A stretch of 64,000 nucleotides of DNA. Source: Agrobacterium vitis. GTDB taxonomy: Bacteria; Pseudomonadota; Alphaproteobacteria; Rhizobiales; Rhizobiaceae. The stretch lies in assembly GCF_014926405.1 (NCBI RefSeq), contig NZ_JACXXJ020000005.1:2175001-2239000 (forward strand), written 5' to 3'. Below, one piece after another: positions 1,282 to 25,161 of this stretch (position 1 is the stretch's first letter; each line of letters begins with the position of its first letter). Made by a program: the position numbers and the translations under genes. The notes below the pieces were generated by a model. It was not told where the DNA came from and searched no databases. It saw only the letters and a list, made by a program, of their open reading frames with translations.

Positions 1282-1521
1282 GGCCCTCTCCTCTCGGCTG
1301 CTGAACGACTTTGCCGACAACAACCTGCGCGCGCCAATCTCCGCCCGCATTGATCCCGATCAAGCCTGGAAATCGCCAGGATTGAACGATGACAAAGACA
1401 CTGTTCAGCATTATCGAACGATCTTTCGCGTATATGCGCTCTACATGAAACGACCGGCAGGCTGTATCTAGGAAGCAAGACGTTCCAAGCGCCCTCGCGC
1501 CAACCTATCGGACCTGCCGTC

Positions 1522-2406
1522 ATGGATGCCCATCATTCCCCAAGCTTTGCCCTGACCCGCCCGATCCATATCGGACGGGCGCATCTGGTGGTTGGCGATC
1601 TGGCCATGGTCTCCAGCTTCTACCGGCATATCATTGGCCTCGCCGTGCTGGAAAGCACAGCCAGCGGCATGGTGTTGGGGGTGGGCACGACGCCGCTGCT
1701 GACGCTGACCACGAGGAGCGATGCGGCCATGGCGCCACCCACGGCAGCCGGGCTGTTCCACACCGCTTTTCTTTTGCCGAGCCGCAAGGCACTGGCGCAA
1801 TGGCTGCGCCATGCCGCCCATTCCGGCGTTCAGTTGGACGGCGCTTCGGATCATCTGGTCAGTGAGGCGATCTACCTGTCCGACCCGGAAGGCAATGGCA
1901 TCGAGATCTACCGCGATCGCGACCCGCAGGAATGGACCTATCAATCCGATGGCATGATCAGCATGGCCACCCTGCCCCTCAGCCTGCAAGCGCTTTACGA
2001 CAGCGCCACGGATGAGGCATGGACCGGCCTGCCCGAGGGCTCAAGCATTGGCCATATGCATTTGCAGGTCGGCAATGTGCCGGAAGCAGACCGGTTTTAT
2101 GAGGGTGTGCTGGGTTTGAAGAAAATGGCCTCCTATCCCGGCGCCAGCTTCTTTGGCTCCGGCCAGTACCACCACCATGTCGCCGCCAATATCTGGAACA
2201 GCCGGGGTGCTGGCCCTCGCCTCGCGGCAATGACCGGGCTTGCCGATTATTCTTTGACGTTTAACGACAAGGACGCGCTGCAAAAGGCACTGGCGACGCT
2301 GGAGGCGATGGAGATTCCGGTGACCCTGGGCGCGGAAGGCCACCGACTGACCGATCCCTGGGGAATTGGTCTGACTTTGAATTCGGTGCCGCCCATATCT
2401 GGATAA
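1522..2406 (+). CDS. VOC-family dioxygenase (CatE-like, two glyoxalase modules)
   Basis: A 294-residue protein built from two vicinal-oxygen-chelate modules, residues about 15-135 and 175-290. Metal-ligand positions are visible: His near residue 20 (IGRAHLVVGDL), His near 77 (LFHTAFLLP), an acidic ligand in GIEIY near 127, and His near 179 (IGHMHLQVGN) for the second module. This layout matches CatE/catechol-2,3-dioxygenase-like proteins of Bacillus and proteobacteria, iron-dependent ring-cleavage-type enzymes. The substrate cannot be told from sequence. It converges on the deacetylase gene, with only three bases between the stops. Confidence 0.85.
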   Translation: MDAHHSPSFALTRPIHIGRAHLVVGDLAMVSSFYRHIIGLAVLESTASGMVLGVGTTPLLTLTTRSDAAMAPPTAAGLFHTAFLLPSRKALAQWLRHAAHSGVQLDGASDHLVSEAIYLSDPEGNGIEIYRDRDPQEWTYQSDGMISMATLPLSLQALYDSATDEAWTGLPEGSSIGHMHLQVGNVPEADRFYEGVLGLKKMASYPGASFFGSGQYHHHVAANIWNSRGAGPRLAAMTGLADYSLTFNDKDALQKALATLEAMEIPVTLGAEGHRLTDPWGIGLTLNSVPPISG

Positions 2407-22046: not shown

Positions 22047-22319
22047 TTAGTGCTGCGAAACCGGGTTTCTCGACCATTCCTGCAATGTCGTCCTGATCAG
22101 AACCAGCGCCGCATGGCGGGCCTGATCGCGCTCGGACGGATCGACGATACCGGCAAGCCGCGCCTCAAATGCCCCTACGGTTTCGCGCACCCAGCGATGC
22201 AGGGCGGGGTCGGAATGCCGGTCGAGAAGCGCGCGGATAGCGCTTTCTATCCGCCGGTTTTCCATGGCGAGTGTCTCAGCCCTCGTTTGGTCGGTTTTCT
22301 TGAGCATTGCCGAAGTCAT
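22047..22319 (-). CDS. Small helical protein of unknown function
   Basis: A 90-residue, highly charged, probably all-helical protein (MENRRIESAIRALLDRHSD, then VRETVGAFEARLAGI). No family recognised. Amino acid composition looks natural for the genome and the frame has no competing gene on the other strand. The ribosome site is weak. It lies alone between NUDIX and DJ-1 genes, with about 200 and 160 bases on either side that show nothing else. Confidence 0.45.
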   Translation of the reverse strand: MTSAMLKKTDQTRAETLAMENRRIESAIRALLDRHSDPALHRWVRETVGAFEARLAGIVDPSERDQARHAALVLIRTTLQEWSRNPVSQH

Positions 22320-22482: not shown

Positions 22483-23049
22483 TCAGGAATGTTCAGCGGC
22501 AAAGCCCTGCATTTCCGCTTGAATCTCCGGCGTCCAGAGATCAAGAGCTTTCAGGATCTCCACCGTGAAGGTGAAGGGTGAAGTGCCGGCAGCGGTGATA
22601 ATGCCACCATCCGAAACCGCCTGCGGCTGATGCATGTAGAGCGCATCTCCGAGATAGGCAGCATAGACCTTATGCGCGGCGAGACCGTTACCGGTATGGG
22701 AAACGTCATTGAGGACGCCAGTGCCAGCCAGCGCACTCGCCGCGGCACAGATTCCGGCAATCAGCGTGTTGCTGGCGCGAAACCCATCCACCAGACCGGA
22801 AAGATCCGGCGCATTGCCCTTTTCCCAACTCATGCCGCCCGGAATGATCAGCGCATCGAAGGCTTTGGTGTCCAGCGCGGCATAGGCGCAATCCGGTGTT
22901 ACCTTCACGCCGCCCATGGATGTGACCGGCTCGCCCTGCGGCGACGCATAAACGATATCCAGGTCGAGAAAACTGCGCGCCACGGCGGTCAACAGAGCGA
23001 TTTCCCAATCGGCATAATCCTCGGCCAAAGCGATTGCGATGCGGGTCAT
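22483..23049 (-). CDS. DJ-1/PfpI family protein
   Basis: 188 residues with the class I glutamine-amidotransferase-like fold. The nucleophile elbow is GICAAASALAG with Cys near residue 100, and the acidic residue typical of the family is in the N-terminal ALAEDYADWE segment. Members are putative glyoxalases, deglycases or chaperones; a safe call is DJ-1/PfpI-like. It starts 31 bases after the GNAT gene on the same strand, so it belongs to the transcript controlled by the leader described at 23612-23759. Confidence 0.88.
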   Translation of the reverse strand: MTRIAIALAEDYADWEIALLTAVARSFLDLDIVYASPQGEPVTSMGGVKVTPDCAYAALDTKAFDALIIPGGMSWEKGNAPDLSGLVDGFRASNTLIAGICAAASALAGTGVLNDVSHTGNGLAAHKVYAAYLGDALYMHQPQAVSDGGIITAAGTSPFTFTVEILKALDLWTPEIQAEMQGFAAEHS

Positions 23050-23080: not shown

Positions 23081-23569
23081 TCAGGCCAGCGCCTGAATAT
23101 AGCGCATGCCGGTCACCGGACGGGCGGAGAACTCCATCTGCTCGTAGAAACGATGGGCGGCGAAATTGCCGGTGGCGGCGGACACCGAAAGGTAATCACA
23201 GCCGGACTGGCGCGCTACATCACGGGCGCGGTTGATAAGGTGCTGGCCGATGCCATTGCCCCGCTGACCGTCACGCACATAGAGATGCAGCATTTCCATG
23301 CCACGCTTGCCTTCATTGGCCCTGTAAAGCGGCATCAGAATGGCGTAGCCGATCAGCTGTTCACCGCCATCGGCCACAAGTGCTGTGATCCACGGCATGG
23401 GGCCGAACAGGTCGCGTTTCAGCGTTTGCGGGGTCATGTCCGAGGCATCACCGTGATGGGCGACCAAGGCCGCGATCATCTCGTTCAACTCCGGCAGGTC
23501 GCCGGGCTGGGCATTGCGAATGCTGACCATTGCAGGTCTTGGCAGGGTAATGTCGCTATCTTCAGTCAT
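23081..23569 (-). CDS. GNAT family N-acetyltransferase
   Basis: 162 residues of the GNAT fold: MEMLHLYVRDGQRGNGIGQHLINRA holds the acetyl-CoA loop (R-x-x-G-x-G, near residue 106), followed by CDYLSVSAATGNFAAHRFYEQMEF. The Ala/Ser-rich SVSAATGN and YEQMEF suggest a small-molecule acetyltransferase; the substrate is not readable. The ATG has an AGAGGGA site 7 bases upstream. The first gene of a two-gene unit with DJ-1, preceded by an apparent leader peptide and attenuator, which ties its expression to translation of aromatic codons if the model is right. Confidence 0.88.
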   Translation of the reverse strand: MTEDSDITLPRPAMVSIRNAQPGDLPELNEMIAALVAHHGDASDMTPQTLKRDLFGPMPWITALVADGGEQLIGYAILMPLYRANEGKRGMEMLHLYVRDGQRGNGIGQHLINRARDVARQSGCDYLSVSAATGNFAAHRFYEQMEFSARPVTGMRYIQALA

Positions 23570-23611
23570 GGCTGCTTCCCTCTTGAAATACCGCCGTCAG
23601 GGAAGCTCGTT

Positions 23612-23667
23612 CAAACAACAAGGCCGCCTGACGGCGGCCTGTTGACATGGTGATCTGTCAGGCCGCC
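23612..23667 (-). promoter_or_regulatory. Attenuator: terminator and competing antiterminator
   Basis: On the minus strand the transcript would contain GGCGGCCTG (23667-23658), then CAGGCCGCC, GTCA loop and GGCGGCCT followed by TGTTGTTTG. The last pair forms a perfect 8-bp terminator stem (plus coordinates 23621-23628 and 23633-23640) with a U-rich tail. The first and second arms pair over 9 bases and would exclude it. This is the classical 2:3 versus 3:4 choice of amino acid attenuators. The tail ends about 43 bases before the GNAT start. Function is inferred from structure. Confidence 0.7.
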
Positions 23668-23669
23668 GG

Positions 23670-23723
23670 CTACCGGTAGGCCCAAAAATACGTGCAGGAA
23701 ATGGTTGCGCGCGTGTCGATCAT
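23670..23723 (-). CDS. Candidate 17-residue leader peptide with aromatic codons
   Basis: ATG-to-TAG frame coding MIDTRATISCTYFWAYR. The Tyr, Phe, Trp and Tyr codons near the end stand where stalling would expose the antiterminator. The stop codon is followed directly by the antiterminator arm, as in trpL and pheL leaders. A -35-like TTGACT (23759-23754) and -10-like TCTATT (23734-23729) put the expected transcript start near the ATG, making a leaderless message possible, as is known for the rhizobial trpE(G) leader. AAGGAGGG at 23743-23736 is the alternative ribosome site but is 12 bases away. Too short for automatic gene calls. Confidence 0.65.
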   Translation of the reverse strand: MIDTRATISCTYFWAYR

Positions 23724-23728
23724 GATTG

Positions 23729-23759
23729 AATAGATCCCTCCTTACAGAGGAAAAGTCAA
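23729..23759 (-). promoter_or_regulatory. Candidate promoter of the leader-GNAT-DJ-1 transcript
   Basis: TTGACT, 19-base spacer, TCTATT on the minus strand. The spacer is longer than ideal (17 or 18 give weaker -10 matches), so the element is tentative. It would start transcription at or near the leader ATG. Confidence 0.45.
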
Positions 23760-24011
23760 GTGGTCATTGTGGCTTGCCATCCGGCACAGCCAGCACGCAG
23801 CAGCACCGTTTCACCACATGAAGTCGGCGTTCCGATAGAAACCTTATAGTGGTAATTTATAAAAAAACAACTATTGTGCGCATTCCTTCAAACCATTTGC
23901 GTGAAAAATTGGAAGCTGTTTTGCAGCGCACGGTTCTTTTGTTGCTCCGCACAATGATGTGACATGCCCTCAACCTTGGAGTTCAGGTCTCTCAATATAA
24001 AGGGCATTGAT

Positions 24012-25161
24012 ATGAGCGAAAAGAAAAACGTTTTTCTTACAGGTGCAACTGGTTTCATAGGCGCATACCTTCTTACCGAAATGCTCAAAAGTTCTCATAT
24101 CGGGAAAATTTATACTTTGTGCCGCAGGTTCGATCCGCAAAATGATAGGGATAGAATTCTACTTTCATTCAAGAAATTCTCCATAGAGATGGATAGGGCT
24201 TATTTATTTACCGATCAGATCCAAGTCGTGGAAGGTGACATAACAATGCCCCGTTTTGGACTGTCTGAACTCCACCTACGAAATGATATGTCAGGAAGCC
24301 GATCTTATCCATCATGTCGCCGCGCGGGTGAATCACATTCAGCCTTATCAATTGCTCAAGAAACCCAATGTAGATAGCATGGCAGATGCCATTATCATGG
24401 CTTCCCGTGGGAAGCAGAAAATCGTGAATTTCGTATCAACGTTAGGCTCCGCAGTTACGCGGGATAGCATTGGTAATTATCTAGAGGACTTTCCAGACAA
24501 CACAGCCCTAGAATCTGATATGGGATATCTGCTTTCAAAATGGGAAGGAGAAAAACTACAAGCAAAATTCATAGCCGAAGGGGGTAAAACAAACCTGTTT
24601 CGCCTCGGTTATATATCCGGACACAGTACGTCTGGAGTTTCTTTATTTGAAAATAACCAGTTTATGCTTTTCGTAAAAAGCTGCATTCAACTCGGCTATG
24701 CGCCAGAGCTAGATAGAACAATCAACTTCACACCCGTTGATTACACAGTAAAAATTATGAATGCTCCAAAGTATACTATTGAGGGTGGACACGTTTTAAA
24801 TCTATTCAATTTTACAGGTTTGATCGAGTGGAAAAATGTCGTTCAGTGGCTAAATGCACGAGGATATGAAATATCGATAATTCCTTTCTATGAATGGCAG
24901 AAGTTACTTTTGTCTGATGGTGACAGTAATCCACTTTATCGTCTTCTACCACTTTACGGCAGCGACAACGCTCACGAAAAAATCCTACGTTTTGGACGAG
25001 AAATTCACAAATACCGCTACGACAATGTCTGCGCTGCAACGATCGAAAATGATGTCTGGCCCCCCCGACTCAAGTTTGAGTTACTAGATACGTATTTGAG
25101 CTACTTGCAGAGTCAGGAATTCTTACCAGCACCAACCATGATGGAATCATGTGCGGCATAG
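24012..25161 (+). pseudogene. Thioester reductase-like protein, frameshifted
   Basis: The first part (from MSEKKNVFLTGATGFIGAYL, NAD(P)-binding GxTGFxG motif) runs to GDITMPRFGLSE, where the frame is lost; the second part resumes at STYEMICQEADLIHHVAARV with the catalytic-region YLLSKWEGEKL (Tyr-x3-Lys) and a complete C-terminus. Joined, they give about 382 residues of a stand-alone thioester/carboxylic-acid reductase (Male-sterility NAD-binding family), as used to release lipopeptides or polyketides. One extra base near 24268-24270 explains the break (total length is 1 over a multiple of 3). The DNA is more AT-rich than its flanks, suggesting recent acquisition. A sequencing error cannot be excluded. 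Confidence 0.8.

Follow-up and report, generated by a model that had tools for sequence, protein, structure and literature searches.

Ribosome-mediated attenuation is classically known from the enterobacterial trp, pheA, pheST and his leaders. The leader described here lies in the window, a stretch of 64,000 nt of Agrobacterium vitis DNA (contig NZ_JACXXJ020000005.1), and resembles the enterobacterial attenuators in its alternating segments, S, A, B and C corresponding to regions 1 to 4. It is unlike them in having three amino acids represented per leader, a probable leaderless start, conserved segments beyond the terminator and, in the window, a weak 1:2 helix. Two hosts of other systems compared below need a word of background: the YjhQ protein of Escherichia coli is a GNAT, as is the product of our target gene, and Acholeplasma belongs to another phylum than the Alphaproteobacteria that carry the present leader.

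In Sinorhizobium meliloti, the trpE(G) attenuator (trpL/rnTrpL/peTrpL) comprises a leaderless short ORF and gives rise to a short attenuated RNA (PMC7298713, PMC10117765). The likeness to our locus is one of features: a leaderless short ORF with control codons and a choice between antiterminator and terminator (PMC7298713, PMC10117765). The S. meliloti system, however, is concerned with Trp and a biosynthetic gene, whereas here the codons are Tyr-Phe-Trp, the target is a GNAT gene, and two helices, H:D and anti-Shine-Dalgarno (anti-SD), are added.

Three other systems share some of these features. The Bacillus subtilis vmlR leader combines transcription and translation attenuation behind one upstream ORF (uORF), but it senses antibiotics, belongs to a Gram-positive host and has an unrelated target (PMC9226507). 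In E. coli toiL-topAI-yjhQ, a uORF precedes an operon and stalling in toiL frees a hidden ribosome-binding site; termination there is Rho-dependent and the signal is a ribosome-targeting antibiotic (PMC12121999). The Acholeplasma uORFC-13-1 motif upstream of aroF, compared by description, has a predicted uORF with a Phe codon beside a terminator, and differs in its biosynthetic, aromatic-pathway target (PMC8632094).

Among the matches listed from the open-access literature, none reported the leader, any of six peptide strings or proteobacterial tyrosine attenuators. Likewise, none of 4227 Rfam families matched the whole window at gathering score; five matches fell at 23450-23850, the best with an E of 0.87 and all far below gathering. 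The leader most likely works like trp-type attenuators: most of the structural features tested are present, and it is the behavior of the untranslated leader that may differ.

The leader and its target in A. vitis

The minus strand of the window carries an ATG..TAG frame of 17 codons (23723..23670), probably leaderless and conserved in orthologues, which encodes the peptide MIDTRATISCTYFWAYR. Its control codons, TAT-TTT-TGG (23682..23690), place Tyr, Phe and Trp at -6, -5 and -4 from the stop. Segment A (GGCGGCCTGACA; 23656..23667) is the 5′ arm of the antiterminator and corresponds to classical region 2. Segment B (ACAGGCCGCC; 23633..23642) is shared, being the 3′ arm of the antiterminator and the 5′ arm of the terminator (region 3), and segment C with its tail (AGGCGGCCTTGTTGTTT; 23613..23629) provides the 3′ arm of the terminator (region 4). 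The start of the leader, segment S (AUGAUC; 23718..23723), would be the 5′ end of the RNA and the partner of S′ (GATCAC; 23650..23655), which lies within the A:B loop; this 1:2 helix is weak in the window, with five pairs.

The terminator has eight pairs, seven of them G-C, and an interrupted U-tract; its tail runs to 23613, which leaves 43 bases to the GNAT ATG (23569). The first-pass annotation had described the 17-codon frame, the pairing of the antiterminator arms GGCGGCCTG and CAGGCCGCC, and the 8-bp terminator 43 bases before the GNAT start; all are present in the sequence. Its further claim, that the antiterminator and terminator arms are mutually exclusive and accompany aromatic codons, also holds. 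The observation is confirmed and extends further than first described. Two more conserved helices were found downstream of the terminator. In the first, segment H (GCCGTCAGG; 23627..23635), made up of the inner terminator arms and loop, faces segment D (CCTGACGGC; 23593..23601), its exact 9-nt complement. In the second, the anti-SD arm (GCTTCCCT; 23599..23606) faces the GNAT Shine-Dalgarno arm (23574..23581), of which it is the exact 8-nt complement; the helix in the window is GCUUCCCU paired with AGGGAAGC. The anti-SD arm has three bases in common with D, so that the two helices compete at their border.

It should be noted that terminator-like sites around the leader number 4, versus 3.8 expected from shuffles. 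The window by itself therefore proves little, and the proof lies in conservation.

A -35 box, TTGACT (23754..23759), lies 36 nt upstream of the leader ATG. When boxes with at least 5/6 matches were sought 25-42 nt upstream of the ATG, TTGACA or TTGACT was found at 34-37 nt in 120/120 leaders, which bears out the promoter-like spacing proposed earlier for a leaderless mRNA. The likely -10 box, GATCTA (23731..23736), is weak and was placed by eye on the better-conserved columns -13 to -8; a promoter scan of the window, with this weak -10, did not report the TTGACT box of the leader. The spacing suggests that transcription begins at the leader AUG or right beside it.

The gene behind the leader encodes a GNAT N-acetyltransferase of 162 aa (23081..23569, minus strand), which is the constant target in Rhizobiaceae. 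Its nearest matches in sequence and in the fold predicted for it (mean pLDDT 85.7) are diamine/thialysine acetyltransferases and the plant NATA amino-acid acetyltransferases, with 17-29% identity in the ten best fold matches. It is followed by a DJ-1/PfpI-family gene (188 aa; 22483..23049, minus strand), and the first-pass annotation had accordingly spoken of a GNAT-DJ-1 operon. The GNAT half of that claim stands; DJ-1 is frequent but optional. Among the 108 loci that extend 1300 nt or more past the GNAT start, DJ-1 follows in 68 (63 by a distance rule, and five placed from coordinates because the GNAT start is shifted), and tblastn did not find it in the other 40. DJ-1 was therefore dropped as a constant part.

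The window GNAT is 98% identical to that of A. vitis (Allorhizobium) strain CG78, where no DJ-1 follows it and a 90-residue protein comes next by eye (L031, after 4486); in CG118 (L032) the DJ-1 gene is in place. The 90-residue protein (window 22047-22319, minus strand) has no Pfam or NCBIfam match. It gave a tblastn match in at least 47/108 GNAT loci, a lower bound because some loci end early. On the other side, a divergent NAD_binding_4 gene of male-sterility type (23964-25161, plus strand) is split into two overlapping frames (23964-24377 and 24256-25161) and looks broken or mis-sequenced.

Conservation, codon register and covariation

When 199 family genomes were searched with the GNAT protein, 42 orthologues came out at E<=4.5e-35, and the match listed after them has an E of 1.8e-18. 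The short ORF and the arms are both kept upstream of all 42. Outside the family the orthologue is nearly absent: at E<=1e-25 it was found in 6/297 genomes of the order, five of them in the family. Eighty further GNAT loci, the best 80 of 506 relatives in a named collection, include some of the same strains. Of the resulting 122 fetched loci, 120 have a complete leader (115 distinct sequences). The two incomplete loci are cut by contig ends: in L103 nothing upstream of the gene is left, and in L076 the break falls within the leader, whose end is kept. The leader is a real, conserved element. Within its own genome, model R1 finds it as a single strong match (E 7e-22; next 0.03).

Among the control codons, Tyr keeps its place and Trp moves. 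Tyr is at -6 in 120/120 leaders and Phe at -5 in 119/120. Trp is at -4 in 112/120, at -7 in six (WYFT), at -8 in one (L122, WFYY) and absent in one (L117). The leader is thus a short ORF with its control codons fixed near its end. In YF leaders Phe is TTT in 119/119, and Tyr is TAT in 117 and TAC in two; the corresponding shares in the window, counted over 26 long frames, are 36% for TTT among Phe codons and 67% for TAT among Tyr codons. The peptide varies in its first half. Across all the leaders found, the order of residues at the peptide end varies as well (YFW, WYF, YF, YY, IWW, WFYY), which does not fit nascent-peptide arrest of the TnaC/SecM/erm kind.

Pairing was analyzed on 59 representatives with <90% identity; a separate alignment, A4, omits L117 and four more of 60 prepared sequences. 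The RNAalifold consensus of the 59 is A:B plus H:D, not the terminator, and its covariation term is small (-0.47 of -16.72). In that structure 96.1% of cells pair, versus 41-48% when it is slid by one column. Double-sided changes occur in 34 cells versus 11.7 in shuffles (0/500), and the pairs showing them number 5 versus 3.3 (19/500). Twenty of the 34 cells are in H:D and 14 in a single flanking A:B pair. Four of the five A:B core pairs never show a pairing-preserving change on either side, and the cores of A:B and B:C hardly vary.

The two downstream helices were examined further by swapping arms between sequences, a procedure that ignores relatedness. The own H:D pairing gives -17.5 kcal/mol versus -15.3 when swapped, and the own anti-SD:SD pairing -11.4 versus -7.8 (0/10000 permutations in each case). 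Outside the Rhizobiaceae GNAT leaders, both helices gave 0/5000 (27 sequences, many of them close relatives). The own H:D pairing was better than with all 15 other hairpin types in 11/26 sequences only, and L117 is without H:D pairing. For S:S′, 59 distinct leader starts gave 0/5000; the signal is present outside the Rhizobiaceae GNAT leaders (24 sequences, 0/5000) and borderline inside (35 sequences, 230/5000). This last test omitted L188 and L221 (terminator pattern lacking, start not found). L186, whose frame continues beyond the usual stop, entered it with a manually assigned leader end. The own pairing falls in the best tenth of swaps in 11/59 sequences for S:S′, 18/59 for A:B, 44/59 for B:C and 30/59 for anti-SD:SD, which is modest.

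Relatives of the leader before other genes

The switch is not confined to the GNAT gene. Apart from the 42 GNAT leaders, the 45 matches at E<=1.5e-6 in the 199 family genomes were a plain terminator and two second copies. Of 16 regions read, 14 were rejected as plain terminators and the two kept are Tyr-Tyr leaders. The second copies have Tyr-Tyr leaders: one (L127, MIKTALIAATYYATSP) precedes a tyrosyl-tRNA synthetase (TyrRS) gene, and the other (L128) has lost it. In the genus of these two, 10/16 genomes have the second copy, with TyrRS behind eight (one interrupted) and lost in two.

In the order, model R2 matched 10/297 genomes: five matches precede GNAT genes, two TyrRS (L174, L175) and two TyrA-like genes (L177, L179), and one is a degenerate remnant (L176). 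L178, read in the same search, is a plain terminator. In the class, model R3 matched 23/385 genomes at E<=1e-3. Eighteen of the 24 non-own matches were read; ten regions look real and eight were rejected, mostly as plain terminators. The members precede TyrRS (L180), five GNATs (L181-L184, L190) and a tryptophanyl-tRNA synthetase (TrpRS; L185) with IWW codons and, by eye, a TyrA-like gene (L186) and stand-alone S4-like genes (L187, L188). In the family of G686, which is Reyranellaceae going by the names of the relatives of its GNAT, R3 matches are found in 72/75 genomes; among the 30 best loci, 28 have a WYF leader and 28 a GNAT gene on the same strand within ~600 nt. One of the 30 (L198) has a Tyr-Tyr leader before TyrRS. 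A Reyranellaceae GNAT (that of L183) shares 28% identity with the window GNAT, 26% and 22% with a further two from Rhizobiaceae, 46% with that of L182 and 33% with that of L181, so that rather different GNATs stand under one switch.

Some of these loci deserve a word of their own. L185, from another family of the class, has at 1327-2331 (minus strand) a second TrpRS whose leader peptide ends in IWWRSF. The small proteins at 2148-2411 of L187 and 2122-2397 of L188 (both minus strand) resemble by eye the C-terminal S4 domain of TyrRS and lie behind WYF/YF leaders; they are possibly RNA-binding regulators. An accessory TyrRS lineage with its own aromatic, mostly Tyr-Tyr, attenuator occurs in several families (L127, L166-L172, L174, L175, L180, L198), and a leader or its remnant without intact TyrRS in L128 and L173.

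The codons follow the target: leaders of a second TyrRS or a TyrA-like gene have Tyr-Tyr, those of a second TrpRS have Trp-Trp, and those of other GNATs have WYF. TyrRS and TrpRS charge the amino acid that their leaders would sense. The TyrA-like proteins match prephenate dehydrogenase models with E 8e-37 and 4e-36, below the curated cut-offs, and the GNAT shows no such relation to the amino acids of its leader. In the genomes checked, the synthetase controlled by the leader is a second copy: two TyrRS matches exceed the cut-off in G466, G399, G710 and eight genomes of the L127 genus, and G683 has two TrpRS. In a tree that includes housekeeping TyrRS from seven of the eleven loci, the 11 leader-controlled TyrRS are split from these seven by a branch with support 1.000. 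This is what would be expected of inducible backup or resistance synthetases.

How the switch may work and what it may mean

The nascent RNA ending just after B was folded in different ribosome states. A ribosome placed on the aromatic codons lets A:B form (P>=0.5) in 59/59 sequences, and one placed on the stop in 0/59. In the fold model, then, a stall frees the antiterminator arm and a ribosome at the stop hides it, and the antiterminator and the intrinsic terminator are mutually exclusive. Shifting the ribosome codon by codon blocks A:B at 0 and -1 (footprints +12 and +15) and allows it from -4 to -10, the furthest tested, with P>=0.74 (0.74-0.93 at -8 to -10). The aromatic codons are just inside the permissive zone. 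As stalls at -8 to -10 are also permissive, the folds account for the 3′ limit of the register and not for the 5′ limit. Without a ribosome, A:B forms in 38/59, including the window (P 1.0), so that an untranslated leader would read through, unlike in classical trp.

The equilibrium fold was tried as support for the switch and dropped. Even in the stalled state the terminator prevails over A:B (mean 0.96), as it does in almost every state, and H:D is rarely formed, with means of 0.12 for the stalled ribosome, 0.03 for the ribosome at the stop and 0.04 for no ribosome. In the window, H:D at equilibrium is independent of the state (0.75, 0.71 and 0.71, respectively). The nascent-RNA folds alone were therefore used for the switch, antitermination must be kinetic, and the case for a translation layer comes from covariation and not from folds.

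We favor, with a probability of about 0.82, a ribosome-mediated attenuator that senses the supply of aromatic aminoacyl-tRNA. The attenuator interpretation of the first-pass annotation is supported by the conservation of leader and arms in 42/42 orthologues, the spacing, the codons and the exclusive arms; what changes is its scope, as the same RNA family elsewhere precedes accessory TyrRS, TrpRS and TyrA-like genes. Transcription would start at or beside the leader AUG. When tRNA-Tyr, tRNA-Phe and tRNA-Trp are all charged, the ribosome would reach the stop codon and cover arm A, the B:C terminator would form and the GNAT gene would remain untranscribed. A ribosome waiting at Tyr(-6), Phe(-5) or Trp(-4) would leave A free to pair with B before C is made; with A:B formed first, the terminator would be pre-empted and transcription would continue. 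In the read-through RNA, H:D pairing would occupy some of the anti-SD arm and so expose the Shine-Dalgarno sequence of the GNAT gene; in RNA escaping a leaky terminator the anti-SD arm could hide it. We lean, with less assurance than for the attenuator itself, towards this added translation layer, and the conserved H:D and anti-SD helices suggest that one ribosome event may set both transcription and translation. The computations support the conservation, the place of the codons, the mutually exclusive arms and the covariation of H:D and anti-SD:SD; we infer termination in vivo, the order of events, the switching of H:D and anti-SD:SD and the response to amino acids. The presence of fewer control codons than in classical attenuators (one each for Tyr, Phe and Trp) and the interrupted U-tract count against an attenuator.

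The main alternative is that the leader senses a drug or arrests on its own peptide: the peptide or an exit-tunnel antibiotic would stop the ribosome, and the GNAT would answer ribosome-targeting antibiotics. uORFs that sense translation inhibitors do exist, both among hosts of this group and beyond it: the DUF1127 uORF of S. meliloti (PMC12218461), toiL of E. coli (PMC12121999) and vmlR (PMC9226507). Moreover, GNATs include drug-modifying enzymes, and stalls at several codons would free A. Yet the order of the residues varies, and which codons are present depends on whether TyrRS, TrpRS or another gene lies downstream, which makes this explanation improbable. A drug that slows translation of the leader could still induce, and drug sensing is therefore possible as a side role. 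Less probable again is a main action in trans, by the attenuated RNA or by the peptide of 17 residues, the cis switch being secondary. Such action is described for rnTrpL and peTrpL in S. meliloti, a related host (PMC7298713), but here the first half of the peptide is variable, its aromatic end is permuted and the cis-pairing arms covary. That a chance ORF precedes an ordinary terminator, with the upstream conservation owed to other DNA elements, would agree with the shuffle result in the window. It is rejected by the orthologues: 120 complete leaders in 122 loci keep Tyr in one place, with synonymous TAT/TAC there, and homologues with other targets switch codons.

Returning to the attenuator that senses aromatic aminoacyl-tRNA, what the GNAT does in it can be guessed at: the enzyme might remove what makes the ribosome stall, by N-acetylation of a synthetase inhibitor or of a toxic analogue of an aromatic amino acid. 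Because backup synthetases stand under the same switch, detoxification of such an inhibitor or analogue is the most economical role that we can suggest for it. RimL and MccE appear to acetylate processed microcin C. A wider and decidedly tentative view is that one ancestral switch, acting as an OR-gate for Tyr, Phe and Trp, defines a regulon with which Alphaproteobacteria answer aromatic aminoacyl-tRNA stress and which covers backup TyrRS and TrpRS, TyrA-like enzymes, stand-alone S4-like proteins and GNATs. In it the GNATs would be inducible immunity enzymes, perhaps acetylating, by analogy, compounds of soil and rhizosphere at their alpha-amine, whether mimics of aminoacyl-adenylates or toxic aromatic amino acids.

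In closing, the leader appears to represent an undescribed attenuator family, with three aromatic amino acids in one register and members in several families of Alphaproteobacteria. In the switching of codons among GNAT, TyrRS and TrpRS targets, nature offers an experiment on the change of attenuator specificity, and the leader predicts which backup synthetases are inducible. In those Rhizobiaceae that have it, an uncharacterized acetyltransferase is kept together with the leader; tied in this way to aminoacyl-tRNA supply, the enzyme gains a testable role.
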